NCBI GenBank assembly: GCA_963170055.1
Contig: CAUJGJ010000277.1
Coordinates: 16,001-80,000 of the forward strand
Direction of reading: 5' to 3'
Length of the DNA stretch: 64,000 bases
DNA from: Halisarca cf. caerulea
Taxonomy: Eukaryota > Porifera > Demospongiae > Chondrillida > Halisarcidae
The translations under genes and the position numbers were made by a program. The notes beneath the pieces were generated by a model. That model worked only from the letters and a program-made list of their open reading frames with translations. It was not told where the DNA came from and ran no database searches. Positions 45,991 through 64,000 of this stretch are shown piece after piece (the first letter of the stretch is position 1; each line of letters opens with the position of its first letter).

Positions 45991-46514
45991 ACAAAGGGTG
46001 TATAAAAACCATTTAAAAATGGTTAAAGGATGTAGGATTGACGCAGGACTGTGCAAAAAGGATCCTCCAAAAACCCATGGAACAAGGGCAGCCTAGGACT
46101 GTGCAAAAAGAATCCTCCAAAAACCCATGGAACAAGGGTAGATTGCGAAACCGGTACAGGGCCAGGTGGGCAAAGGGCAAGACGGGCATAGGGCTAGACG
46201 AGCACTGTGCAAATTCCTACATCCCGCATGTGCAGCACATTGTATATACATATTTATATATCATAATATATATGTGCTGCGGGATGTAGGAATTTGCACC
46301 GTGCTCGTCTAGCCCTATGCCCGTCTTGCCCTTTGCCCACCTGGCCCTGCACCGGTTTCGCAATCTACCCTTGTTCCATGGGTTTTTGGAGGATTCTTTT
46401 TGCACAGTCCTACGCTGCCCTTGTTCCATGGGTTTTTGGAGGATCCTTTTTGCACAGTCCTGCGTCAATCCTACATCCTTTAACCATTTTTAAATGGTTT
46501 TTATACACCCTTGT
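45991..46514. mobile_element. Palindromic foldback element in the satellite
   Basis: The left arm (about 45991-46234) and right arm (about 46275-46514) are near-perfect reverse complements around an AT-rich centre containing TATATACATATTTATATA. The outer ends read ACAAAGGGTGTATAAAAACC and, on the other strand, ACAAGGGTGTATAAAAACC, differing by one A. Each arm holds a direct duplication of about 50 bp built on GACTGTGCAAAAAG...CCATGGAACAAGGG. Close to each end is a small hairpin with arms AACCATTT and AAATGGTT. There is no coding capacity beyond mirror-image open frames, so this is a non-autonomous inverted-repeat or foldback element. No convincing target duplication was found, and the transposase family is unknown. 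Confidence 0.85.
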
Positions 46515-47160
46515 TCGTGCAGTTTTTCCTTTAAATATAATTTGTTAAGTGTACTATCTTATTCCTTCAATAAAACCTAATTTCATTGAGATATGCCTAA
46601 GTTGTGAACCTAACTTAGTAATAATGCATGTGTCATTGCTAAAAGCATAGCATCCCTGCGGTACCAGACAGGTCTGGTTCCAGGGCACAGGATGAGGACC
46701 TCGGGATACAATCATGTCCCAAAATGAAGTGCCTGCCAAGCAAACAGAGCATAGGCTAAGCTTATTGGTTTTAATGTCACATCATTATGTGATACCATAA
46801 ATCATGCAAATGTTGTAGGAAAGAAACGAAAACTATTCACCTGCCTGACTAAATAGTACTGGTTTTGCGTAGCCATACATTGCCGTCCGCTAAGATTTCG
46901 AAGTTCTTACTACGAAGGATTCAAACTATATTTTGTAGCTACTGCCTCAGAAGGCATCAATATCACTTCGAAATGCTTCGAACTATACTGTATCATTACT
47001 TCAGAACAGCGTTTGCTATAGTATGTTTCGACCAAAACCAGTAAGTCTGTCCACCTTTCGGTTGGGCATGCTTCGATCAAAATCGGCGATTCGATTCACC
47101 TTTCTCGGACATGTTTTTCTTCGTCAATCTAAAGTTACATGCAATGAATGCAATTAAAAA

Positions 47161-47220
47161 GCAATGAATCTAATTATAGGTGGGTGGATAGTAATGAATC
47201 TAATTATAGGTGGGCGGATG
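47161..47220 (+). repeat. 30-bp tandem duplication
   Basis: Two adjacent units contain AATGAATCTAATTATAGG followed by TGGGTGGAT or TGGGCGGAT, and differ at two positions. Confidence 0.85.
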
Positions 47221-47434
47221 TCGACCGCAAACCTAGTCTATGTTAGTCCGATTCATCATGGCGGGCTCTTCTTAAGTATGGGATTTTCCTATCCAAATAA
47301 TTCTCACTCTGTACTACACTAGCTGCTTCAAGAACCCTCAAAGGCACCCCGCGCTATCATTTTGAGTTGAAATGTGAAGTTTGAAGGTTACAGAACCTTC
47401 CTAGCGATCGCTAGCCCGTTTAGTTTAAAAGCGA

Positions 47435-47435
<1 letters not shown>

Positions 47436-47473
<38 letters not shown>
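47436..47473 (+). repeat. (TAA)n microsatellite
   Basis: About 12 uninterrupted trinucleotide repeats (AATAATAAT...) are followed by CAAGATG. The leucine-rich open frame read across it on the minus strand is an artefact of the repeat. Confidence 0.95.
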
Positions 47474-47476
<3 letters not shown>

Positions 47477-47705
47477 GATGACGAAAAGTTGCCCATATCT
47501 CGGCTCATGCCTCTTAGGAAAGAAACGAATTGTTGTTTTCACAGTAGGGTAAGGTCTGCAGTAACCATCGTAAAACATCGAAAGCCTACAAAAGGACGTT
47601 TCATAGATCGCTTGAGGCTTTTCGTTCCGCAAAACGTTCGTTTCCGGCGAAAATGCGCTTTAGCCTAATGTATGGCGGCCATGTTTTTTCGGTGTAAATC
47701 CTACA

Positions 47706-47729
47706 TATGGAGTACTACCGTACTCCATA
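47706..47729. repeat. Perfect hairpin at the right insertion junction
   Basis: Arms TATGGAGTAC and GTACTCCATA (10 bp each, no mismatch) flank a TACC loop. The hairpin ends where the satellite resumes with AATATTTGGCAC. Confidence 0.8.
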
Positions 47730-50700
47730 ATATTTGGCACTAGCACCACGCACATTCCCAGTGGACTCACATGAAGTTTCTGAAGTGCTGTGGGCGTATT
47801 TGTGTAGTGTTGGATATGCTGGTGCTAATACCAATATTTGGCACTAACACCAGGCACATTCGCAGTGGACACACATGACCTTTCTGAAGTGCTGTGGGCG
47901 TATTTGTGTAGTGTTGGATATGCTGGTGCTAATACCAATATTTGGCACTAGCACCACGCACATTCCCAGTGGACACACATGAAGTTTCTTAACTACTGTG
48001 GGCGTATTTGTGCAGTGTTTCATATGCTTCTGCTAATACCAATATTTAGCACTAGCACCACGCACATTCCAAGTGGATACACATGAAGTTTCTGAAGTAC
48101 TGTGAGCGTATTTGTGTAGTGTTGAATATGATTGTGCTAAGACTAATATTTGGCACTAGCACTATGCACATTCCCAGTGGACACACATGAAGTTACTGAA
48201 GTGCTGTGGGCGTATTTGTGTAGTGCTGGATATGCTGGTGCTAATACCAGTATTTGGCACTAGCACCACGCACATTCCCAGAGGACACACATAAAGTTTC
48301 TGAAGTACTGTGAGCGTATTTGTGTAGTGTTGGATATGCTGGTGCTATGACTATATTTGGCACTAGCACAACGCACATTCCCAGTGTACACACATAAAGT
48401 TACTGAAGTGCTGTGGGCGTATTTGTGCAGTGTTGGATATGCTGATGCTAATACCAAAATTTGGAACTAGCACCACCCAAACTCCCAGTGGACACACATG
48501 AAGTTTACAAAGTGTTGTGAGCGTATTTGAGTAGTGTTGGATGTGCTGGTGCTAATACCAATATTTGGCACTAGCACCACGCACATTCGTAATAGACACA
48601 CATGAAATTTCATAAGTACTATGGGCGTATTTGTGTAGTGTTGGATATGCTGGTGCTAATACCAATATTTGGCACTAGTACCACGCACATTCCCAGTGGA
48701 CACACATGAAGTTTCTGAAGTACTGTGAGCGTATTTGTGCAGTGTTGGATATGCTGTTGCTAAGACTAATATTTGGCACTAGCACCATGCACATTCCCAG
48801 TGGACACACATGAAGTTACTGAAGTGCTGTGGGCGTATTTGTGTAGTGCTGGATATGCTGGTGCTAATACCAATATTTGGCACTAGTACCACGCACATTC
48901 CCAGTGGACACACATGAAGTTTCTGAAGTACTGTGAGCGTATTTGTGCAGTGTTGGATATGCTGTTGCTAAGACTAATATTTGGCACTAGCACCATGCAC
49001 ATTCCCAGTGGACACACATGAAGTTACTGAAGTGCTGTGGGCGTATTTGTGTAGTGCTGGATATGCTGGTGCTAATACCAATATTTGTCACTAGCACCAC
49101 GCACATTCTTAGTAGACACACATTAAATTTCATAAATACTGTGGGTGTATTTGTGTAGTGTTGGATATGCTGGTGCTTATACAAATATTTGGTACTAACA
49201 TCACGCACATTCACAATTAAAACAAACAAAGTTTCTGAATTGCAGTGGGCGTTTTTCTGCAGTGTTGGATATGCTTGTGCTAATACCAATATTTGGCACT
49301 AGCACCACACACATTCCTAGTAGACACACATGAATTTTCATAAGTACTGTGGGTGTATTTGTGTAGTGTTGGATATGCTGGTGCTAAGACTAATATTTGG
49401 CACTAGCACCACGCACATTCCCAGTGGACACACATGAAGTTACTGAAGTGCTGTGGGCGTATTTGTGTAGTGTTGGATATGATGGTGCTAAGACTAATAT
49501 TTGGCACTAGCACCATGCACATTCCCAATGGACACACATGAAGTTACTTTAGTGCTGTGGGCGTATTTGTGTAGTGCTGGATATGCTGGTGCTAATACCA
49601 ATATTTGGCATTAACACCACCCACATTCCCAGTGGACACACATGAAGTTTTTGAATTGCTGTGAGTGCATTTGTGTAGTGTTAGTTATGCTGGTGCTAAT
49701 ACCAATATTTGGTACTAGCACCACGCACATTCACAATAGACACAGATGAAGTTTCTGAAGTGCAGTGGGCGTTTTTTTGCAGTGTTGGATATGCTGGTGC
49801 TAATACCAATATTTGGCACTAGCACCACGCACATTCCCAGTGGACACCCATGAAATATTTGAATTGCTGTAAGTGCATATGTGTAGTGTTGGATATGCTG
49901 GTGCTAATATCAATATTTAGCACTAGCACTAGCACATTCCCAGTGGACACACATGAAGTTTCTGAAGTACTGTGAGCGTATTTGTGTAGTGTTGGATAAG
50001 CTGGTGCTAAGACTAATATTTGGCACTAGAACCATGCACATTCCCAGTGGACACACATGAAGTTACTGAAGTGCTGAGGGCGCATTTGTTTAGTGCTGGA
50101 TATGCTGGTGCTAATACCAAAATTTGGAACTAGCACCACACACATTCCCAGTGGACACACATGAAGTTTACGAAGTGCTGTGAGCGTATTTGAGTAGTGT
50201 TGGATATGCTTGTGCTAATACCAATATTTTGTAATAGCACCACGCACATTCCCAATTGACACACATGAAGTTTCTGAAGTGCTGTGAGCGTATTTGTGTA
50301 GTGTTGGATATGCTGGTGCTAATACCAATATTTGGAACTAACACCACGCATATTCCCAGTGGACACACATGAAGTTTCTGAAGTGCTGCGGGCGTATGTG
50401 TGTAGAGTTGGATATGCTGGTGCTAATACCAATCTTAAGAACTAGCACCACGCACATTCCCAGTGGACACACATTAAGTTTCTAAGAAGATCTGTGGGCG
50501 TATTTGTGTAGTTTTGAATATACTGGTGCTAATGCCAATATTTGGCACTAGCACCACGCACATTCCCAGTGGACACACATGAAGTTTCTGAAGTGCTTTG
50601 AGCGTATTTGTGTAGTGTTGGATATGCTGGTGCTAATAAAAATATTTGGTAATAGCACCATGCACATTCCCAATTTACACACATAAAGTGTCTGAAGTGC

Positions 50701-52135
50701 TGTAGGCGTTTTTATGCAGAGTGGGATATACTGGTGCTAAAAAAAACATTTGACACTAGAACCACGAACATTCAAAGTGGACACACATGAAGTTTCTGAA
50801 GTGCTGTGGGTGTATATGTGCAGTGTTGGATATGCTGGTGCTAATACCAATATTTAGTAATAGCACAACGCACATTCCCAGTGGACACACTTGAAGTTTC
50901 TGAAGTGCTGTGGGCGTATTTGTGTAGTGTTGGAGATGCTGGTGCAAATACCAATGTTAAGCACTAGGACCACACACATTCCCAGTGGACACACATGAAG
51001 TTTCATAAGTTCTGTGGGTGTAATTGTGTAGTGTTGGATTTGCTGGTGCTAATACCAATATTTAGCACTAACCCCACGCACGTTCCCAGTGGACACACAT
51101 GGAGTTACTGAAGTGCTGTGGGCGTATTTGTGTAGTGTTGGATATACTGGTGCTAATACAAATATTTGGCACTAGCACCACATACATTCTCAGTGGACAA
51201 ACATGAAGTTTCATAAGTTCTGTGGGTGTAATTGTGCATTTTTGGATATGCTTGTGCTTATAACAATATTTGGCACTAGCACCACCCACATTCCCAGTGG
51301 ACACCCATGAAATATTTGAAGTGCTGTGAGTGCATTTGTGTAGTGTTGGATATGCTGGTGCTAATACCAATGTTTGCCACTAGCACCACCCACATTCCCA
51401 TTGGACATACATGGAGTTTCTTAAGATCTGTGTGCGTATTTGTGTAGTGTTGGATATGCTGGTGCTAATACCAATATTTAGCACTAGCACCATGCACATT
51501 CCCAGTGGACACACATGAAGTTTCTGAAGACCTGTGGGCGTATTTGTGTAGTGTTGGATATGTTGGTGCTAATACCAATATTTGGCACTAGCACCATACA
51601 CATTCCCAGTGGACACACATTAAGTTTCCGAAGTGCAGTGGGCGTATTTATGTAGTGTTGGATATGGTTGTGCTAATATCAATATTTGGCACTAGCACCA
51701 CGCACATTCCCAATTGACATACATGAAGTTTCTGAAGTTCTGTGAGCGAATTTGTGTAGTGTTAGATATGCTGGTTCTAATACCAATATTTGGCACTAGC
51801 ACCACGCACATTTCTTGTAGACACACATGAAATTTCATAAGTACTGTGGGCGTATTCGTGTAGTGTTGGATATGCTGGTGCTAATACCAATATTTTACTC
51901 TAGCACCATGCTCATTCCTAGTGGACACATATGAAGTTTCTTAAGTGCTGTGAGCTTATTTGTGTAGTGTTGGATATGCTGGTGCTAATGCCAATATTTG
52001 GCACTAGCACCACGCACATTCCCAGTGGACACACAAGACCTTTCTGAAGTGCTGTGGGCGTATTTGTGTAGTGTTGGATATGCTGGTGCTAATACCAATA
52101 TTTGGCACTAGCACCAAGCACATTCTCACTGGACA
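47729..52135 (+). repeat. 104-bp satellite, right diverged array
   Basis: About 42 further monomers in the same orientation as the main array. The first few match the homogeneous right-half type (GACCTTTCTGAAG at about 47877). Later ones are increasingly diverged, with new variants such as GCTAAGACTAATATTTGG and AAGTTACTGAAG. A 208-bp dimer is duplicated at about 48652-49067. The last recognisable monomer ends at about 52135 after CATTCTCACTGGACAAATTCC. Growing divergence toward the edge is typical of satellite borders. Confidence 0.93.
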
Positions 52136-52984
52136 AATTCCGACGACTGGAGAATGCTTCCCGCAACCAAAGGAACTCTTCCTGTTGTAAATTTTCAATT
52201 TCCCACGCAACCACATAGTTTCCTGCATGAAAGGGAACACTGCTTGAGGTGTAAATTTTAATTTCCCATGCCTCCAGATAGCTTCCCGCATCAAAAGGAA
52301 CACTTCCTGTGGTGAAAATTTCTATTTCAAAGTACAGCTCGTTGCCATACAAGTACAGCTCAATACTATACTGGTACAGCTTATTGCTATACCGGTACAG
52401 CGCATTGCAATGCCGGTACAGCACATTGACATAAAGGTACAGCTCATTGCCATACCAGTACAGCTCATTGCCATACAAGTACAGATCGTTGCCATACCAG
52501 TACAGCTCATTGCTATACCGGTACAACTATATGACTGTAAAAATGAATACTTCCTGTGGTTAAGTTTCCATTTCAAAAGCCAAACACGGCTTTAAGCGTC
52601 AAAGGGAAAACTTGCCGTGGAATAAATAACTATTTCCCACGACTCCACATGGTTGAATGCATCAAAGGGAACACTTCCTGTGTTGAAAATTTTAAATAAC
52701 TCAAAACTCCACATGGCTTCTCACATCAAAGGGAACACTTCCTGTAGTGAAAATTGAAATTTTTACCGAAAATATGGCAAATAGCATTAAAGGGAACACT
52801 TCTTGGGGTGAAAATTCAATTTCCCACGCCTCCACATAACTCTCAGGATAAAAAGGAAAACTACCCTAACCATGAAAATTTCCATTTCCCACAACAACAC
52901 ATGGGGACCTGCATAAAAAAAAACTATCTGTAATGAAAATTTAGATTTCAAACTAAACAGTTTCCAGATTTCAGGCTTCCCCCA
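52136..52984 (+). repeat. Degenerate tandem repeat of about 62-65 bp, left part
   Basis: Units share ATTTCCCACGCCTCCACATG, GCTTCCCGCATCAAAGGGAA and CACTTCCTGTGGTGAAAATT, each in weathered form. Anchors (AAAGG) lie near 52168, 52229, 52294, 52664, 52728, 52789, 52851 and 52912. The 21-bp minisatellite at 52332-52527 interrupts the series. Copies are too diverged for recent amplification. No protein-coding signal is seen. Confidence 0.8.
52332..52527 (+). repeat. 21-bp minisatellite, about 9 copies
   Basis: The unit is GTACAGCTCATTGCCATACC plus one base, with scattered changes. Because 21 is a multiple of 3, the minus strand reads as a repeating heptad of the type Y-x-Y-G-N-E-L. I judge the long open frame there to be a property of the repeat, not a gene. 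It sits inside the 62-65 bp repeat region and may have expanded from it or been inserted. Confidence 0.88.
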
Positions 52985-53998
52985 TTAACCCTTAAACATT
53001 CCAATTCCCATTTTGAAATTCTGCGCGAACGTTCCAAAGCCACTTGAGTGGCTTTTGCGGTGTGAAAATAGGTTATTTTTGCCAACGGTTTTCTGCTGTT
53101 CTGTTGACTTGTAGGAAACTTCTAGCTTGTCCCGAATGTAGTTTGTAGCTAGTGAGATCTTCCTACAAGTCTTGGTGTTCCATTTTCTACGCAAAACTTC
53201 GTATTGGCCTCCAAACCTGTAAGTACTACGTACCTAAATTTGTAAACTTGTATATACATACGTTATCAATCGGCTGGTAAACATTTCGTTACAAAATTCA
53301 ACGCAACTACACATTTAACACTGAAAATACATTGACAGAAACAAAAACGAAAAGTTGCAGCTAAAAGTCAAGGCATTGGTGAATGCGTCTCTTCTATTTC
53401 CTAGTCGACTGTCTAATCAACTTGCATACTTTGACGCGTAAATCTCTTCAGTGCTTCAAGACGACATTGAAAGAGCACACTGAAGCAGGCAAAGGAGATT
53501 ATGTCCAAGTACAAATGCAAGAAACGTAAAGGACAAATTTCCTCGGATGGCGGGCCATCTGGACGATTCTACAAACGTAAAATCCCCCTGTAAAGCTTCC
53601 AAAACGATGGTATATCTTGTCTGAAGCTCAAAGAACGAGCGTGTGAGAATTTCCTTTACCTGCAAGGAGGTAATCTCCACAATCCGGCGCTTCACTGCCC
53701 TTCTCCATACTTTGCCGTAAAGAACAATCCGTATACTAGACTATAACTTCGCATAACTGCATATTCTAAGTAAAATAACACGTATATGCATAGGAATAAC
53801 TTGTATAACAGTAATCTTTACATAGAATGTTTCAGCTATAGTACAGAACGCATTACTACCAAACTATAAAAAAATGTGACAATCAATAGAAGAAACTAGG
53901 ACTAACCTTTACATATAAAAAATCAACGAAGAAAATTGGAGCTTTTGCAGTTTATGTGCGCGAACCACTTAAGTGGCTTTGGAATGTTTAACAGTTAA
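52985..53998. mobile_element. Non-autonomous piggyBac-like element with TTAA duplication
   Basis: The block is bounded by TTAA at 52985-52988 and TTAA at 53995-53998. Its ends are inverted repeats: CCCTTAAACATTCCA on the left and, read on the opposite strand, CTGTTAAACATTCCA on the right. A subterminal inverted motif follows, CCAAAGCCACTTGAGTGG on the left and CCACTTAAGTGGCTTTGG on the right. TTAA target duplication with a CCC start is the hallmark of the piggyBac superfamily. About 1.0 kb long, with no transposase frame recognised, so a MITE-like derivative. Removing it and one TTAA restores the flanking repeat in phase (GCTTCCCCCA-TTAA-AGGGAACAC compared with GCTTCCCGCATCAAAGGGAA). Confidence 0.75.
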
Positions 53999-54295
53999 AG
54001 GGAACACATCATGAGATGAAAATTGCCATTTCCCATAAAATTACGTGGCTTCCTGCACGAAAAGGAACACTTCTTGTTGTAAAAATAATTTATCACGCTT
54101 CAAGATGGCTTCTCACATCAAAGGGATTACTTCTTGGTATGAAAATTTCAATTTCACACGCCTGCACATGGACTTCTGCATCAACGGACAAATTTTTCGT
54201 GAAAATTTTACCTTCCAACATCTCCACATGGTGTCTTACATCAAAGGGAACACTTCCTGTGGTGAATATTTTAATTTTCCACGCCACCACACGTC
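53999..54295 (+). repeat. Degenerate repeat of about 62-65 bp, right part
   Basis: The tandem repeat of 52136-52984 continues after the piggyBac-like insertion, with anchors near 53998, 54059, 54119, 54180 and 54243. The 150-codon plus-strand frames that run through it into the telomere-like tract are artefacts. Confidence 0.75.
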
Positions 54296-54456
54296 CCCTA
54301 ACGGTAACCCTAACGGTAACCCTAACGGTAACCCTAACGGTAACCCTAACGGTAACCCTAACGGTAACCCTAACGGTAACCCTAACGGTAACCCTAACGG
54401 TAACCCTAACGGTAACCCTAACGGTAACCCTAGGGTTAGGGTTAGGGTTAGGGCGG
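54296..54456. repeat. Interstitial telomere-like tract with strand switch
   Basis: About 11 copies of the 12-mer CCCTAACGGTAA (54296-54430) alternate the canonical animal telomere unit CCCTAA with the variant CGGTAA. At 54428-54435 the sequence turns over through the palindrome CCCTAGGG into about four TTAGGG units in the opposite orientation (to 54452), ending GGGCGG. A few degenerate G-rich remnants follow (GGGGTAGGGTCAG near 54520). The open frames through this tract on both strands have no coding support. Confidence 0.93.
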
Positions 54457-54818
54457 ATATTGCAGTAGATGACAACATTATACCCGGCAAATGTGCCTAG
54501 GGTTATATTGTGTTTTAGGGGTAGGGTCAGATTTTCTGTACACCACATACACATGTACACACACAAGCACACACACTTCACTTATACATTACAAACATGT
54601 CCATTGACCACACCCCCTCTTATGCACTATCAAGTATAATATCCATGTCAACAGGAGGGACATGTGGCCCCTGAGCATTGTCAAAACCCACACTTGGCTC
54701 AAATGACTCCCACATCCCATAGATTCAACTCAGAAGCAATGCCAAACCCAGACACACAACATTGTAAAATTCACTCACTTAGGATGATGTATGGTGGTGA
54801 GCTTTTCAGGTCTTTGAG
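54457..54818. other. Intergenic spacer upstream of the SET-domain frame
   Basis: This stretch holds a CA-rich segment (about 54540-54580) and no recognised gene. Near its end, TTTTCAG at 54803-54809 is a plausible 3' splice site shortly before the ATG at 54819. No TATA box was convincing. Confidence 0.5.
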
Positions 54819-57578
54819 ATGACAAAAACACCCTGGCAAAGTAACAAATTTAAATTGGGACTAATCATGACAACAGTAAATAGCCCTAGTGCATGTGACT
54901 GGAAGTGTGACCACATGGTAGAACCAGCAGTAATGGCGGTGAAGACCAAGGATTGTATTTTAAACTCTTTGGAGAGAATTCGTGAACTTGTGTGTGTTGT
55001 GGAGGAGGAAGGACCCCTACAACACCTGCTGTCCACCCTCCAGGAGGCTGTAGCCTACCTGGTTGGTGGACAGCCAGTGAGTGATTCGAGTGTGTGGGTT
55101 GACAGTGGGAATGTGAGGGCGAGGGACGAGAGCATGGACGTGAGTATAGAGGGGAATGTGAGGAATGAGAGTGAACATATGAATGTGGAGTTGAGGGCGG
55201 GGGAAGAGAGTGTGAGGGAGAGTGTGGATGAGAGTCTGAGGGCGGGGGGAGAGAGTGTGAGTGAGGATGTGGATGAGAGGACGGAGGAAGAGAGTGTGAG
55301 GGAGAGTGTGGATGAGAGTCTGAGGGCGGGGGGAGAGAGTGTGAGTGAGGGTGTGGATGAGAGGGCGGAGGAAGAGAGTGTGAGTGAGGGTGTGGATGAG
55401 AGGGCGGAGGAAGAGAGTGTGAGTGAGGGTGTGGATGAGAGGGCGGAGGAAGAGAGTGTGAGTGAGGGTGTGGATGAGAGTGTGAGTGAGGGTGTGGATG
55501 AGAGGGCGGAGGAAGAGAGTGTGAGGGCGTGGGAAGAGAGTGTGAGTGAGGGAAGAAGCAAACGTTACTATGTAGAAAACTATAGATTCGCATACACACA
55601 TATACCAGGCGTTCCCACCAGCCTCCCCAACACCAGAGATTTCCTCAGGCTGATCAATGCCGCTGCTGGCAACAGCATTGATCAGCAAGCCTCCCTCTTG
55701 GCTCTGGTGTGTGGGGAGGACCACAGCTTCACACACTCGCTGGACGAGTGTGTGAAGCTGCTCTTAGACCATAATTCTCCCCTCCCTACCACACCCCCCC
55801 TACCCTTAGTCCTCGATATTTTTTCCTCCCTCCACCAGCTTGCTGTCAGGGCCCACTATGTTCTGGGCAGGCTCGTCAGGGAAACTTGCGAGTCAACATC
55901 AGAGAATGTCTTCTCCGTCATTGCCACTCTGTGCAATGATGGAGAAGACATGAAGCTCAGACATTACCGGGGCCTGTTACAGGGCTGCTCCTGTCACAAG
56001 TGTCGACAGGAGCTGACGTGGCTGGATGCCCCCACAGGCAGCCAGCCAGGGCCCTGTACATATGTGGCTGCTGCCATGGCCCTGACAGTGAGCAATTTTA
56101 CAAATTTAACCCCCACCTTTTTTAGACAGGTATGTAAATTTTATGAAAAGTCCTCCCCCCTATCGCACGAATATTTTTTTAAATCACGACAGTCCCCCGC
56201 ACGTGTCAGACAAGCTCTGCCTTGTCTGACATCCCTCACCATCCCGCCAACCCAACCACTACCCAATCCCCTGAGGCTACTCAGGGGGGCAGTCTTCCCA
56301 CTGTCTGTGGAGGCAATCCACTATGTGGACGGCGATGGGGGCAACCTTCTTGCTGAGGCAGTGTCAGGGCTCCTGGAGTATCTCGCCCCCATTTCCAACA
56401 TTGAGATACTCCAGCTTACCAACGGTCAACACCTGGTTGGCTTTCGTGAGGAGTCGCATGACGCCATTGAGCTGACCCACACATTTACATGTGGATCAGC
56501 CAATGTGCGAGGACTGCGAAAGCAGGAGCTGGGTGTTACAGCCCTGAGACGTGCCAGGCACAACATTGCCACCAGCAAGAAGGCCCTCCTGTCTACTAGT
56601 GGCTCCGTGGACAGCTATGGTCGACTGCTAGTAACTGTCCACCTTGTGCGGGATGGTGTGAGTACTACCAACGGAGAGGACCTCGTACAGCAAGGCCTCT
56701 CCGTTCCCTTTGGGGAGGCCCCCTCCAGCATCAAGGAGGCCCAGCGTGTGGCCATGGAGGAGAGGAGAGGCCTCTACAGCCTCAGTGCAGACATGTCTGC
56801 ACTAGATCTCCATCCGTCGGAGGTTAGACGGCAGCTCCTCTCCTCCACTGAGGTACGCATCACCATCGGTAGTGACATCTGCCGAATCACAAGTCAAGCT
56901 GGAGGAAGCAACGAAGGCCACTTGATGATTCGGAAGAGCACTATCGAAGGTGCGGGGCTGGGTCTCTTTGTGCATGGGGCCCAATCCAATTTGTACATAC
57001 CAGATGATAAATTTTTAACTTACTATTCCCTCCGTCCCCTTCCCAGAGGTCACCCCCCCTCCAACCCTGATTATGAATTGGCTGTAAATAGTTTTGTTTT
57101 TGGTGCCGATCACTATGACGGCACCAACTTGGGGAGGTACGCCAACCAAGGGGGCTTGGACGAGGCGATGAGAGAGCTGGCCTCTCAGAGCACATTGGTC
57201 AACTACACCCAGCCGGACTGGAAGGTAGTTGACCAAGTTGCAGAGCGTCACTGCAATGCTAGGTTCTATCGTCAAGGCCAGTCCCTTTGTGTTGGTACCT
57301 CCGGAACAATACATCTATCCCCAACAACCCCCAAAGAGTTACTTGTAAATTATGGAATTCCAAATTATTGGCTTCCCTACCTTGCTAGCAAGGCAAATAC
57401 CCTTCCTCCCCAGAGCCCCCACTTAAAATTCCTACTATGGGCCCTTAGTAATTCGAATTGCAATTGGCCCGACACCCTAAAGAGCACATTAACCACCTTA
57501 TTAAGTATTGCCCCTCAACCAAATGCACAATCCCCATGGCCACACCTTACAGACACTCCCAGAGGACGTAGACATTGA
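54819..57578 (+). CDS. SNase-like plus SET-like domain protein, 919 aa
   Basis: A single uninterrupted frame of 919 codons, far longer than chance, with GC-rich codons unlike its surroundings. Residues 124-246 are an acidic Glu/Ser/Val repeat. A small Cys cluster, C390-x-C392-x2-C395, could bind metal. Residues about 560-655 resemble a staphylococcal nuclease fold: D598-x-Y-G-R602-x-L, a conserved N-x2-L-V-x2-G-L stretch, then E-A-x3-A-x3-R-R-G-L-Y-S at the end. Residues about 703-850 resemble a SET methyltransferase: G711-A-G-L-G715 at the start, R-Y-A-N776-Q in place of N-H-S, then N-A-R, and E840-L-L-V-N-Y845-G at the end. A lysine methyltransferase role is inferred, but catalysis is doubtful. 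An in-frame TGA at 54798 means translation starts at this ATG, or the exon begins at the acceptor at 54809. Flanking transposon debris suggests a captured or element-borne gene. Confidence 0.8.
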   Translation: MTKTPWQSNKFKLGLIMTTVNSPSACDWKCDHMVEPAVMAVKTKDCILNSLERIRELVCVVEEEGPLQHLLSTLQEAVAYLVGGQPVSDSSVWVDSGNVRARDESMDVSIEGNVRNESEHMNVELRAGEESVRESVDESLRAGGESVSEDVDERTEEESVRESVDESLRAGGESVSEGVDERAEEESVSEGVDERAEEESVSEGVDERAEEESVSEGVDESVSEGVDERAEEESVRAWEESVSEGRSKRYYVENYRFAYTHIPGVPTSLPNTRDFLRLINAAAGNSIDQQASLLALVCGEDHSFTHSLDECVKLLLDHNSPLPTTPPLPLVLDIFSSLHQLAVRAHYVLGRLVRETCESTSENVFSVIATLCNDGEDMKLRHYRGLLQGCSCHKCRQELTWLDAPTGSQPGPCTYVAAAMALTVSNFTNLTPTFFRQVCKFYEKSSPLSHEYFFKSRQSPARVRQALPCLTSLTIPPTQPLPNPLRLLRGAVFPLSVEAIHYVDGDGGNLLAEAVSGLLEYLAPISNIEILQLTNGQHLVGFREESHDAIELTHTFTCGSANVRGLRKQELGVTALRRARHNIATSKKALLSTSGSVDSYGRLLVTVHLVRDGVSTTNGEDLVQQGLSVPFGEAPSSIKEAQRVAMEERRGLYSLSADMSALDLHPSEVRRQLLSSTEVRITIGSDICRITSQAGGSNEGHLMIRKSTIEGAGLGLFVHGAQSNLYIPDDKFLTYYSLRPLPRGHPPSNPDYELAVNSFVFGADHYDGTNLGRYANQGGLDEAMRELASQSTLVNYTQPDWKVVDQVAERHCNARFYRQGQSLCVGTSGTIHLSPTTPKELLVNYGIPNYWLPYLASKANTLPPQSPHLKFLLWALSNSNCNWPDTLKSTLTTLLSIAPQPNAQSPWPHLTDTPRGRRH
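55189..55555 (+). repeat. 39-bp coding minisatellite in the SET-domain frame
   Basis: Imperfect in-frame units of 13 codons (E-E-S-V-S-E-G-V-D-E-R-A-E) alternate with variants containing S-L-R-A-G-G. Lengths are all multiples of 3, so the frame is kept. The region is strongly acidic and probably disordered. Long minus-strand frames rich in Ser, Pro and His across it are shadows of the repeat. Confidence 0.9.
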
Positions 57579-57737
57579 AATCCATCTCATTCCATTGCAG
57601 ATATGTATAAAAAAGAAACAAAGTACCCTCCCCCACCTACGGAATAACAGAGAATACACCCTACCTTTTACTATGCTATACAGTACTAAAATGGAAACAA
57701 GACAGTCCTGTTGACCCAACCACAATCTATCATTGAT
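57579..57737. other. Short spacer, 3' flank of the SET-domain frame
   Basis: No gene is recognised. The sequence may hold the 3' untranslated region of the upstream frame; no canonical AATAAA was seen close to the stop codon. Confidence 0.4.
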
Positions 57738-57814
57738 CACTCAAACACTTTGATCATGCAGCCTTTAGGCGGGACCTCGACTCAGCCCCCCGGGGAATTC
57801 TTGATCTATTCGAA

Positions 57815-60380
57815 GACACTTCGGACAAACCTGAAGCCTTCAACCTGCTCCTACTTGACATTATCAATCACCACACCTCGTTAACTCAAGTACGTAGTAA
57901 TTAAGACACATATGACTCCGTGGATTACACCACAACTGAAAAAAAAACAATGACATATCGGAATCGTCTACACCGAAAATTTTTGAAATCCCGTTCTGAA
58001 ACCGATCGCCTTGTATTTGCCAATTTCCAAACCAAGTGGTACACCAACAGAGACTAGCCAAAGAGCAATATGTGACCAGCCTCATCATGAAGAGAGCCAC
58101 TCCATCCTCAATTTGGTCAGCCGTAAAATTGTGCGGGAATAACGGAAGCAAGTACTCTTTTACATTGAATGCAAACCAAAGACACTTCGGACAAACCTGA
58201 AGCCTTCAACCTGCTCCTACTTGACATTATCAATCACCACACCTCGTTAACTAAAGTACGTAGTAATTAAGACACATACGACTCCGTGGATTACACCACA
58301 ACTGAAAAAAAAACAAGGACATATCGGAATCGTCTACACCGAAAATTTTTGAAATCCCGTTCTGAAACCGATCGCCTTGTATTTGCCAATTTCCAAACCA
58401 AGTGGTACACCAACAGAGACTAGCCAAAGAGCAATATGTGACCAGCCTCATCATGAAGAGAGCCACTCCATCCTCAATTTGGTCAGCCGTAAAATTGTGC
58501 GGGAATAACGGAAGCAAGTACTCTTTTACATTGAATGCAAACCAAAGACACTTCGGACAAACCTGAAGCCTTCAACCTGCTCCTACTTGACATTATCAAT
58601 CACCACACCTCGTTAACTAAAGTACGTACGTAGTAATTAAGACACATACGACTCCGTGGATTACACCACAACTGAAAAAAAAACAAGGACATATCGGAAT
58701 CGCCTACACCGAAAATTTTTGAAATCCCGTTCTGAAACCGATCGCCTTGTATTTGCCAATTTCCAAACCAAGTGGTACACCAACAGAGACTAGCCAAAGA
58801 GCAATATGTGACCAGCCTCATCATGAAGAGAGCCACTCCATCCTCAATTTGGTCAGCCGTAAAATTGTGCGGGAATAACGGAAGCAAGTACTCTTTTACA
58901 TTGAATGCAAACCAAAGACACTTCGGACAAACCTGAAGCCTTCAACCTGCTCCTACTTGACATTATCAATCACCACACCTCGTTAACTAAAGTACGTACG
59001 TAGTAATTAAGACACATACGACTCCGTGGATTACACCACAACTGAAAAAAAAACAAGGACATATCGGAATTGTCTACACCGAAAATTTTTGAAATCCCGT
59101 TCTGAAACCGATCGCCTTGTATTTGCCAATTTCCAAACCAAGTGGTACACCGACAGAGACTAGCCAAAGAGCAACATGTGACCAGCCTCATCATGAAGAG
59201 AGCCACTCCACCCTCAATTTGGCCAGCCGTAAAATTGTGCGGGAATAACGGAAGCAAGTACTCTTTTACATTGAATGCAAACCAAAGACACTTCGGACAA
59301 ACCTGAAGCCTTCAACCTACTCCTACTTGACATTATCAATCACCACACCTCGTTAACTCAAGTACGTAGTAATTAAGACACATATGACTCCGTGGATTAC
59401 ACCACAACTGAAAAAAAAACAATGACATATCGGAATCGTCTACACCGAAAATTTTTGAAATCCCGTTCTGAAACCGATCGCCTTGTATTTTGCCAATTTC
59501 CAAACCAAGTGGTACACCAACAGAGACTAGCCAAAGAGCAATATGTGACCAGCCTCATCATGAAGAGAGCCACTCCACCCTCAATTTGGCCAGCCGTAAA
59601 ATTGTGCGGGAATAACGGAAGCAAGTACTCTTTTACATTGAATGCAAACCAAAGACACTTCGGACAAACCTGAAGCCTTCAACCTGCTCCTACTTGACAT
59701 TATCAATCACCACACCTCGTTAACTAAAGTACGTACGTAGTAATTAAGACACATACGACTCCGTGGATTACACCACAACTGAAAAAAAAACAATGACATA
59801 TCGGAATCGTCTACACCGAAAATTTTTGAAATCCCGTTCTGAAACCGATTGCCTTGTATTTTGCCAATTTCCAAACCAAGTGGTACACCAACAGAGACTA
59901 GCCAAAGAGCAATATGTGACCAGCCTCATCATGAAGAGAGCCACTCCACCCTCAATTTGGCCAGCCGTAAAATTGTGCGGGAATAACGGAAGCAAGTACT
60001 CTTTTACATTGAATGCAAACCAAAGACACTTCGGACAAACCTGAAGCCTTCAACCTACTCCTACTTGACATTATCAATCACCACACCTCGTTAACTCAAG
60101 TACGTAGTAATTAAGACACATATGACTCCGTGGATTACACCACAACTGAAAAAAAAACAAGGACATATCGGAATCGTCTACACCGAAAATTTTTGAAATC
60201 CCGTTCTGAAACCGATCGCCTTGTATTTTGCCAATTTCCAAACCAAGTGGTACACCGACAGAGACTAGCCAAAGAGCAATATGTGACCAGCCTCATCATG
60301 AAGAGAGCCACTCCACCCTCAATTTGGCCAGCCGTAAAATTGTACAGGAATAACGGAAGCAAGTACCCTTTTACATTGAA
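57815..60380 (+). repeat. Seven tandem 366-371-bp units from the LINE linker
   Basis: Units begin at GACACTTCGGACAAACC at 57815, 58181, 58547, 58917, 59287, 59654 and 60025; the last is cut at about 60380 where the LINE sequence continues. Spacings are 366, 366, 370, 370, 367 and 371 bp. Length differences come from TACG duplication in GTACGTACGTAG and from one T in the run of CTTGTATTTGCC (three T in units 1-4, four in units 5-7). The four-T form keeps the LINE linker frame open for 93-114 codons; the three-T form breaks it. Minus-strand frames beginning M-L-P-L-F-P-H are antisense shadows. Confidence 0.93.
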
Positions 60381-60525
60381 TGAACTCATACTTCACTACC
60401 GTCGCCTCAATTGCATCAGATATCGTTACTCCTACAGCATCAAGCACGACCTTTGCCACTCCCCCACCTGTTAACTATTGTGAGCTACCTCTAATCTCAA
60501 CCTCAACTTGTGAATCCCTGAATGT

Positions 60526-61131
60526 ATGCTCATCCATCAACAAAGATCACACCCACCTCCACTGAACATTACATTTAATGATTGTTGCATTGAGCAGGTT
60601 AGTATATTCAAACTACTGGGAGTTATCATCGATGAACATTTACGCTGGAGTCCTAGAATGTTTACAGAACTATGCAGCCGCATCATTCTCAGGAGATCTA
60701 GGACGTCATCTGCCTCTGAAGCCCTTCATATTATAAATTGGAAACCACTCCCAAATCAAAGGGAGGAAAAAATTGTCAAATTATGCAAACAATTGATTCA
60801 ACCAAACTCAGCAGAAACTCCCTCTTATCTAAGACTACTAGCAGAGCCTAGGACGTCATCTGCCTCTGAAGCCCTTCATATTATAAATTGGAAACCACTC
60901 CCAAATCAAAGGGAGGAAAAAATTGTCAAATTATGCAAACAATTGATTCAACCAAACTCAGCAGGAACTCCCTCTTATCTAAGACTACTAGCAGAGCCTA
61001 TTGCATCAACCCACTCCTATGCCACACGCAGTGCTACTCGAGGCCACCTGACAACACGGGCTATTAGATCCAAGTACAGAAAGAAGGCATTCAGCTATCG
61101 AATGGCAAAAGCCTGGAATGCAACTATGTAA
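60526..61131 (+). pseudogene. LINE reverse transcriptase C-terminal fragment, 201 codons
   Basis: This open frame covers the end of the RT domain (I-F-K-L-L-G-V-I-I-D-E-H-L-R-W near residues 26-40) and the LINE C-terminal tail. The tail has L-H-I-I-N-W-K-P-L-P-N-Q-R, P-S-Y-L-R-L-L and a closing F-S-Y-R-M-A-K-A-W-N. A 50-codon in-frame duplication lies at 60698-60847 and 60848-60997. The palm catalytic motif is absent, so no activity is expected; the ATG is arbitrary, the frame being the downstream part of the larger LINE remnant. Confidence 0.75.
60698..60997 (+). repeat. 150-bp in-frame tandem duplication in the LINE tail
   Basis: Two adjacent 150-bp copies begin CTAGGACGTCATCTGCC and differ by a single visible base (GCAGAAACT against GCAGGAACT). 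The near-identity implies a recent event. Confidence 0.93.
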
Positions 61132-61618
61132 CTTGACAATTATTAAATAGTATGTATATGTTACTGTATTATATGTTTATATGTGTGCGTTGTATGCCGG
61201 TGTGTACTACATGCATGTATACTCTAAAATGTACCATGTGTGATATAACTTTCTTCCACAAGTCACTGATCAGATTCTTATTTATTGTAATATGGCCTCA
61301 CATAACATACACCTTGATTTCTCATGCTACATCATCCACTCTATTATGCACTTCAATTTTAAATTATTGATCGTAGTTATTATTGTGTTTGTTAAAATTG
61401 CTCATGCATGCCTTTTCCACTTCCAATTTAAATTTTGCATCTGTGTTTGTGTTCTTTGCTGGAATCCCTGCAAAGTAGCCCTTATACCCACTACCCTCAC
61501 ATTCCTATTTGTACGTAAGTAGCATTTGATCATCCGCTGAACAATCTCAGAATGTTACGTACGTGCAGATTGACCATGCTAAGTACATACTACCCCCCCC
61601 CCACACACACACAAGAAT
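61132..61618. other. AT-rich spacer, possible LINE 3' flank
   Basis: No gene is recognised. Short open frames here are rich in Cys, Tyr and Ile and look like chance frames. A poly-C run joined to CACACACACA lies at about 61593-61613. Confidence 0.5.
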
Positions 61619-61885
61619 CAAGTAAGTAAGGTAAAGGGGGTAATTTGGAACACGATGGTAATTTGGGACAGGGCCAGTAACTTTTGTTGTGGTTAAGTCA
61701 CCCAACCATCTTTGCTACTGCCAAACTCCCCCTCCATGGAGATAATACGGACTGATAATGATAATGATTATAAGGATAAGGATTATAAGGATAATGATTG
61801 ATGTAGCTTATGGTTGGCACGGCTTTTGGCCTGACTGTTCCAAATTACCTGCCGTTCCAAATTACCCCCCTTTACCTTACTTGGT
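61619..61885. mobile_element. MITE-like inverted-repeat element 1, about 267 bp
   Basis: The left end (61619-61669) and right end (61835-61885) are inverted copies of about 50 bp. Both contain AGGTAAAGGGGG, GGTAATTTGGAAC and a second GGTAATTTGG. The interior has short GATAATGATTATAAGG-type repeats. No coding capacity. Target duplication was not resolved. Confidence 0.8.
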
Positions 61886-62236
61886 CAATCTCCCTCTGAC
61901 GTACGCACACACACCTCTACCCCAATAAAGACACGTAACAAGAACGCCCATCAAAATACACAGATGTTTGGGCTCACCTTCTAACCCTAGGCTCCTTTTC
62001 CGCGTTGTAGGCGCTTCTTCGGAAAATACTGTTCTGAGTGTGAAAGAAAACGGGAAAGAGGACAGTGAAAGATTTAAAAACGTAAAATACAAACTAAAAA
62101 GCATAAATAACAAGTACTTAGGACTAAATACGCCTAAAACATTTCAACTTATCTTTGAAGGATTTGAATTTCTTCTTTTCCCGCTCAAGACTATTGACTC
62201 ACGTGATAAACAACACAGACACGTGTAGCAGGTAAA
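61886..62236. other. Spacer between inverted-repeat elements
   Basis: An 86-codon open frame (61968-62228, +) lies here but has no recognisable domain or start context, and an opposing frame overlaps it. I leave it uncalled. CACGTG-like motifs occur near 62201 and 62219. Confidence 0.4.
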
Positions 62237-62285
62237 ATGGCGGCCGGGCAGTCAGTAACAAGTATGCTTGCGAACCAGACCTGCG
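62237..62285 (+). CDS. Possible short first coding exon with splice donor
   Basis: AAAATGGCGGCC at 62234 matches the YY1-type element that often overlaps the start codon of animal genes and gives a good start context. Translation from 62237 gives M-A-A-G-Q-S-V-T-S-M-L-A-N-Q-T-C and reaches a strong donor, GCG|GTGAGT, at 62285/62286. No downstream exon could be assigned inside the window: the following 0.8 kb is two inverted-repeat elements and then a gene on the other strand. It could equally be a promoter element without a coding role. Confidence 0.3.
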
Positions 62286-62339
62286 GTGAGTGTTTGTTTG
62301 GCCATAGACCCTACGTAAGTGTATTTTCGAGTGTATATA

Positions 62340-62517
62340 AGGTAAAGTGCCCTTATCCTGATCACTCCCTAATGCCAATCGGCACTTTTCCTGAACTCAG
62401 GAACTAAAGTTAGCCTGGCATTACAGCTACGGAATAATAAAGCCTAAATCTTTCTGTGTCTGCTGGGAGATGCGGTGATCAGGATTAGGGAGTGATCAGG
62501 ATTAGGGCACTCTACCT
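62340..62517. mobile_element. MITE-like inverted-repeat element 2, about 178 bp
   Basis: The left end (62340-62373, AGGTAAAGTGCCC then TCCTGATCACTCCCTAAT) and the right end (62484-62517) are inverted copies of about 34 bp with two or three mismatches. The right arm is preceded by a partial direct copy of GTGATCAGGATTAGGGA. Shorter inverted bits (AATGCCA and TGGCATT) lie inside. No coding capacity. Confidence 0.82.
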
Positions 62518-62692
62518 CATTAGTATGCGTAAGGTGAAAGCAGATAATTTCGGGAATGTCATAACTTTCAGTGCATAAACTGAATAGCCGACGAAATTAC
62601 CTGCTTTTATCTTATATGATATAACGAAGCAGAGGTCTACAGAACGAAGGCCTGCAGTTGATCTCTGCTACGTTAGAAAATCTTTATTATAT
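62518..62692. other. Short spacer, nothing recognised
   Basis: Sequence between two inverted-repeat elements with no gene or repeat that I can identify. Confidence 0.4.
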
Positions 62693-63057
62693 AATTGCAT
62701 AGTTTTTTAACATGTAGATACTCCATGCATATGAACACTGTTAATTGTGTGAATGTGAACTATGTGGATATTATTGACTGCTATGATCATATCCATGATC
62801 ATAGCAGTCAACGCAGGGGCAATGAGTTTCCATTACACTACGTACGTATATTATGCGTACCACCATAGATAATCTTGTATGTATAGATTATCTATGGTAC
62901 CACTGAGAAACTACAGTATTGTATTTTTCTTTCAAAATCGTGGTGTAGAATTGTCAGCTTATATGTCGAAAAAAATGAAATTACAAAATAATCCACATAG
63001 TTCACATTGACATAATTAACAGTGTTCACATGCATGAAGTATCTACATGTTAAAAAA

Positions 63058-63068
<11 letters not shown>
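62693..63068. mobile_element. MITE-like inverted-repeat element 3 with nested hairpins
   Basis: The terminal inverted repeats are about 80 bp (62693-62775 and 62987-63068). They share TTGCATAGTTTTTTAACATG, GAACACTGTTAATT and GTGAACTATGTGGAT, with a handful of mismatches. Inside are two perfect hairpins: 62774-62790 with 62795-62811 (17-bp arms, TTGACTGCTATGATCAT, loop ATCC), and 62862-62874 with 62886-62898 (13-bp arms, ACCATAGATAATC). The right end overlaps the last codons and stop of the minus-strand gene at 63058. No coding capacity. Confidence 0.85.

Positions 63069-64000
<932 letters not shown>

Follow-up and report, generated by a model that had tools for sequence, protein, structure and literature searches.

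Is a gene that joins a nuclease-like fold to a methyltransferase-like fold an ordinary gene of its host, or does it belong to something that moves? The question is raised by an open reading frame of 919 amino acids (aa) at 54819-57578 (+) in a stretch of 64,000 nucleotides from the sponge Halisarca cf. caerulea (assembly GCA_963170055.1, contig CAUJGJ010000277.1, positions 16,001 to 80,000 of the forward strand). This whole stretch is referred to as the window, and positions are counted from its first letter. In the predicted protein an SNase-like domain comes first and a SET-like domain after it. With moderate confidence we read the SNase-SET frame as an accessory gene of a large, recently copied, telomere-tipped mobile element and not as a single host gene. 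Membership of the gene in an element goes beyond what the first-pass annotation, made from the letters of the window, had seen.

Copies, left edge and gene content of the repeated unit

The frame at 54819-57578 is a real coding sequence. It is a single uninterrupted frame without evident intron, and the other five frames across the same interval contain 28-57 stops each. In first-order Markov sequence with the frame's own composition (60 runs of 12 kb) the longest open stretch was 291 aa. Moreover, the base composition at the codon positions is coding-like in most segments (GC higher at the first position than at the second), with the last 49 codons lacking this pattern.

The sequence is present many times in the sponge genome (194 Mb in 454 contigs; below, C-numbers denote contigs and L-numbers loci or frames). 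A search of this genome with the SNase-SET protein gave 50 scored matches, 11 of which, including that of the window, are full length at about 100% identity. Two further loci are near-identical, namely a second copy on C446, found as a pair of matches that each contain a stop, and a copy on C11 that was matched over residues 499-919. This brings the near-identical loci to 13, on 10 contigs. Eight copies of the same length differ from that of the window by 0-3 coding base changes each, and two copies that are 12 bp shorter show 0 and 1 differences over 915 aligned codons. A frame of 2184 aa around the C11 copy was rejected as an artefact, because the sequence upstream reads N.

The repetition extends well beyond the gene. 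The part of the unit that lies within the window (54454-64000) is about 98-99.7% shared with copies on other contigs and continues past the window end. Its left tip is a (TTAGGG)n tract at 54431-54453 (+), which measures 11-46 bp across the 13 copies read, and the window's unit starts exactly where this tract gives way to CGGATATTGCAG. The left edge was read in the near-identical loci other than C11 (12 loci) and in a diverged copy on C40. All 13 have the common junction, (TTAGGG)n followed directly by CGGATATTG[C/A]AG, with one substitution in the case of C40. Joining all pairs of left flanks that score higher than the best of 500 shuffled pairs yields six groups: telomere-like 12-mer arrays (five copies), a 104-bp satellite (two copies), C241, C3 with C369b, C369a, and C446b with C40. 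A mobile element is recognised by numerous near-identical copies that share one exact end behind differing flanks, and this pattern is found here for the left end. On the right, the shared unit is at least 12 kb long, as traced furthest between C204 and C241, and a short microsatellite-like match found 17-25 kb off at six copies suggests that this is the full size of the unit.

The unit carries a second gene, which lies on the minus strand and converges on the SNase-SET gene. It has at least four exons with AG/GT boundaries, as judged by eye in the homologous locus L083. The window contains its last exon as an open reading frame at 63058-63606 (-) and its third exon at 63806-64000 (-), the latter cut at the window end; the boundaries of both were set by eye in L083. 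Exons 3 and 4 read SRLRSIF...KHTRET/QRKEYDRR, and the R...H-x-x-R...Y pattern across them appears tyrosine-recombinase-like. The two genes are linked: of the 13 near-identical SNase-SET loci, 12 also contain the last exon of the second gene, and at the exception the fetched sequence was partly N. In addition, diverged matches to the first exon (45-57%) are found at four loci. On C40, C412 and C369 a diverged SNase-SET piece is 0.3-1.2 kb away, and the match on C434 has no such piece near it among the matches listed. Some matches to the last exon, such as that at C412:7510365, likewise have no SNase-SET match near them among those listed.

The surroundings of the unit are rich in repeats. Positions 1-52135 of the window consist of a 104-bp satellite repeated in tandem about 500 times (86% matches), with an interruption near 46.0-47.7 kb, and this satellite directly adjoins the mobile unit in C204 and C446. 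A large inverted repeat with arms of about 200 bp, resembling a miniature inverted-repeat transposable element, was seen by eye within the satellite at about 46010-46515. The region 52136-54430 and its CCCTAACGGTAA array are found again, inverted, on the right side of the unit beyond the window end, so that the window copy apparently lies inside a large palindrome. Between the two genes of the unit, in 57813-61131, a 370-bp unit occurs seven times in tandem and a 150-bp unit is duplicated; by motif, these units look derived from a reverse-transcriptase gene like that of a long interspersed nuclear element (LINE).

The SNase-like and SET-like domains

The motifs reported by the first-pass annotation are all present, and in the order that it gave. 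The SNase set consists of D598-S-Y-G-R602-L-L, then N-G-E-D-L-V-Q-Q-G-L, then E-A...R-R-G-L-Y-S; the SET set consists of G711-A-G-L-G715-L-F, N776-Q, N813-A-R and E840-L-L-V-N-Y845-G. Along the protein, an acidic repeat region (residues ~125-247) is followed by a middle part with a CxCxxC motif, the SNase-like domain (residues 568-654) and the SET-like domain (residues 703-850). The acidic region (55193-55551, +) is encoded by tandem repeats of 39 bp, 84 bp and others, with units such as ESVSEGVDERAEE. The CxCxxC motif (C390, C392, C395; 55986-56003, +) is a possible metal site; a frame of L072, a diverged relative described below, has CACFDC in comparable surroundings, as judged by eye. The whole-protein scan against Pfam and NCBIfam gave no useful match; an acylphosphatase line (E 0.062, residues 100-155) falls on the acidic repeat and was rejected.

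The SNase-like domain (about residues 568-654; 56520-56780, +) was recovered in several ways. Pfam PF00565 aligned over positions 18-106 of its 107 to an excised piece of 163 aa, one of four pieces scanned (E 0.0012). Its 19.8 bits narrowly miss the family cut-off of 21, and the whole 919-aa protein gave no PF00565 line. A profile of our own, built from 30 SNase sequences of viral contigs plus a typed consensus, scored 22.8 bits with residues 484-880 and 24.5 with the SNase piece alone, against a maximum of 8.0 for shuffles of 484-880 (5000 made, 1934 scored). Profile-profile comparison with hhalign gave a probability of 95.4 and a score of 50.7, which none of 100 shuffles equalled (maximum 22.8). 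In PHROGs, residues 484-880 also drew two weak nuclease lines (E 0.22 and 0.56), both of which cover the SNase part. These comparisons strongly support SNase homology.

The fold is probably nuclease-dead. The active site of the type protein consists of R35, D40, E43 and R87. The hhalign and profile alignments begin past the acidic D-x-P-E stretch, for which the aligned part has no counterpart, and of the catalytic residues only the R of YGR is matched; nuclease activity therefore seems unlikely. With the SNase-like domains of Tudor-SN/SND1 (PF00565) the protein shares YGR and, spaced as in SNase, the helices after it with GL[YW]S, and also the placing of a nuclease-fold module within a larger eukaryotic protein. 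It differs from them in having one SNase match, no Tudor match and no D-x-P-E counterpart in the aligned part.

The order of the two domains recurs in a relative in the same genome. Locus L072 (protein P0007, C412:7262782-7264002) is open over 424 residues, is 36% identical across 387 codons, and keeps both the SNase-like and the SET-like domain in the same order. The proportion of synonymous differences between the two frames (pS) is 0.77 overall, near saturation, versus a proportion of nonsynonymous differences (pN) of 0.48; the values are 0.65 and 0.45 for the SNase part and 0.84 and 0.45 for the SET part. Thus, the whole architecture has been maintained by purifying selection. In-frame stop codons upstream of the open piece indicate that L072 is either split by introns or partly decayed.

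Relatives elsewhere are few. The protein-database searches gave one near-identical protein, P0002 (917 of 919 residues), and three fragments (P0003, P0004 and P0006); no SNase-SET protein beyond these was found by sequence searches, nor any relative in scans of viral contigs and prokaryotic genomes. By eye, the end of P0004 resembles the L068 frame and P0006 apparently has the same internal junction as C369:1395130 of the sponge genome, so the fragments probably belong to the same species or one very near to it, and do not constitute independent evidence. No report of the SNase-SET architecture was found in the open-licence literature searched, judged by titles and abstract openings. P0003 (168 aa) joins a reverse-transcriptase stretch, which appears DIRS-like by motif and has no Pfam match, to 67 residues of the SET-like domain at 81% identity. 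As for SET domains elsewhere in the sponge genome, five SET-domain matches are clustered at C301:860007-930780, and a SET match of Pfam level at C412:7301014 lies 2.4 kb from an L072-type fragment.

That the C-terminal part (about residues 703-850; 56925-57368, +; GAGLGLF, GRYANQG, CNARF, ELLVNYG) is homologous to SET is likely, not proven. The alternative, that it is a new domain which resembles SET by convergence of motifs, is rather unlikely in our view, and the evidence divides between the two as follows. A deeper SET alignment of 68 rows (66 viral-contig stretches, many of them closely related, one human SET and one typed consensus) was compared by hhalign with a two-member alignment, A3. 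It scored 29.0, a value reached by none of 300 target shuffles (maximum 22.2) and none of 300 query shuffles (maximum 21.9); the reversed profile scored 10.2. The match spans the first 75 of 104 SET columns and pairs GAGLGLF with the GxG-F stretch, the next IP strand with the IPkG strand, and LGRYANQ with ARLINHS. Moreover, 10 of 12 SET-signature residues are retained in L072 versus 36% overall (binomial P 0.001, for positions picked from known SET signatures after the motifs had been seen). Several results count against the domain assignments, and most of them favour the convergence alternative. No Pfam SET family appeared at E up to 10, with either the whole protein or the SET piece, and genome scans with PF00856 (18 matches listed) and PF00565 (one match, elsewhere) named none of the SNase-SET copies. 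As a single sequence against the SET profile, residues 484-880 scored -0.6 bits and the SET piece 0.5, with shuffles of 484-880 reaching 5.7; against the deeper profile the SET piece reached 1.5 bits and its own shuffles up to 6.0. A shallow profile of 10 rows gave 18.7 by hhalign, with 2 of 100 shuffles as high or higher. The PDB, searched by sequence, yielded no match to a SET protein and nothing meaningful, and two AlphaFold predictions (mean pLDDT 33.4 and 32.3) gave no usable model. In addition, the C-terminal ELLVNYG lies outside the profile alignment, the NH..C.PN motif is replaced by NQ...N, and N776 and N813 are 37 residues apart. It is the hhalign probability of the deeper match, only 51.7, that keeps homology from being graded higher.

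Taken as a SET domain, this part appears degenerate. The GxG, the N of NH and the catalytic Y serve cofactor binding and catalysis in SET domains; G711, G713, N776 and Y845 are present and retained in L072, and H is replaced by Q in both proteins. With the SET methyltransferases (PF00856) it has in common GxG...F, R-x-x-N, N and E-L...N-Y-G in the same order, and a profile-profile match that takes in the first 75 of the 104 columns. It differs in falling below Pfam detection, in having NQ for NH and in a long insertion ahead of the second N; moreover, L072 (EHV.NYD) keeps neither the L that follows E840 nor the final G. The claim of the first-pass annotation that one protein holds SNase-like and then SET-like sequence is therefore upheld with strong support for SNase and moderate support, from profile-profile comparison, for SET; of the two Pfam families that it named, PF00565 falls just under its cut-off with a positive profile-profile result and PF00856 has no match at all. 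Both domains are divergent.

Rival origins of the unit

Two other origins of the unit have to be set against a mobile element. The copies could be subtelomeric segmental duplications: members of a host gene family next to telomeres, multiplied through recombination among chromosome ends and not by any recombinase of an element. Two copies, on C30 and C241, are no more than about 10 kb from the end of their contig, and the left flanks include five with telomere-like 12-mer arrays and two with the 104-bp satellite; the shared 12-mer flanks mean that duplication of chromosome ends could explain some of the copies. No telomere array was present at the examined ends of C30, C241 and C258, so these contig ends are not established as chromosome ends. 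Duplication of whole chromosome ends is hard to reconcile with a left edge that all 13 copies read share exactly, next to six groups of flanks, with the non-telomeric flanks of C369a, C241 and C40, or with copies deep inside long contigs (at 12.4 of 14.2 Mb in C369 and 1.35 of 2.2 Mb in C3). As an account of the unit as a whole we consider it unlikely. Still less probable, in our judgement, is a giant retroelement of the Terminon kind, with reverse-complement telomere repeats at its 3' end and captured genes, the SNase-SET gene among them. LINE-like reverse-transcriptase scraps, assigned by motif, occur in the unit at 60514-61131. The minus strand of the unit ends in (CCCTAA)n, as is described for the Terminons, the giant telomeric retroelements of bdelloid rotifers (PMC6431247). 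Against such an origin, a search of 46000-64000 for hammerhead ribozymes had no match at the gathering threshold, and one of 54250-54900 had none at E up to 10. In the open frames of the parts read, inspected by eye and without a dedicated profile search, an intact reverse transcriptase was not noticed. Moreover, the second gene bears introns, and their retention is unexpected after copying via same-strand RNA.

The mobile element that we favour has results weighing against it as well. The edge evidence covers the left end alone, with neither a right end nor a target-site repeat seen, and the telomere-like 12-mer arrays are common to five of the 13 left flanks. The four exon pieces of the second gene matched nothing in Pfam and drew no recombinase from the PHROGs, and its third exon, the sole exon tried against the PDB, gave chance-level rows (best E 0.094). 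The recombinase label is consequently a putative one, given by motif only.

A possible mode of action and its meaning

The proposed element is a two-gene unit, with the SNase-SET gene on one strand and the intron-bearing, recombinase-like gene converging from the other. The recombinase-like protein would move the unit, and the telomere-repeat tip may mark or aid the joining, probably to TTAGGG-like or broken ends. Within the SNase-SET protein, the SNase-like fold, in which no acidic active site can be recognised, may serve as an OB-type nucleic-acid-binding module. The SET-like part might methylate a chromatin protein, or bind one in the manner of a methyltransferase, at the target site or on copies of the element itself. 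We infer movement from the copies and their edges, and recombination, binding and methylation from knowledge of the protein families.

Comparison with known elements places the unit between several types. With the Cryptons and other tyrosine-recombinase transposons it shares the putative R...KHTR...Y signature across exons 3 and 4 of the second gene. It differs from them in having no profile match and a telomere-repeat tip; in addition, the usual Cryptons are much smaller than the present unit. Few mobile elements are known to carry genes for epigenetic enzymes. Fungal DNA transposons with TET/JBP dioxygenases (PMC12730594) have in common with the unit that a mobile element bears an epigenetic-enzyme-like gene, and differ in the enzyme and in the type of element. 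The Terminons (PMC6431247) share the giant size, the junction with telomere repeats and the presence of extra genes; here, neither a hammerhead nor, by eye, an intact reverse transcriptase was seen, and the second gene is recombinase-like.

If the SNase-SET gene indeed resides on a mobile element, it may be that element's chromatin or nucleic-acid tool and not an ordinary gene of the sponge. More tentatively, and with considerable doubt, we propose a giant telomere-tipped recombinase transposon that encodes a SET methyltransferase fused to an SNase-fold reader of nucleic acids and uses it to alter chromatin at telomere-like targets or at its own copies, in which case both the architecture and the type of element would be previously undescribed. 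The near-identity of the copies makes recent activity testable. Should the SET part be active, the element would bring its own chromatin writer, fused to a nucleic-acid-binding fold, and, if the proposal is true, giant elements tipped by telomere repeats would extend beyond those that depend on a reverse transcriptase.

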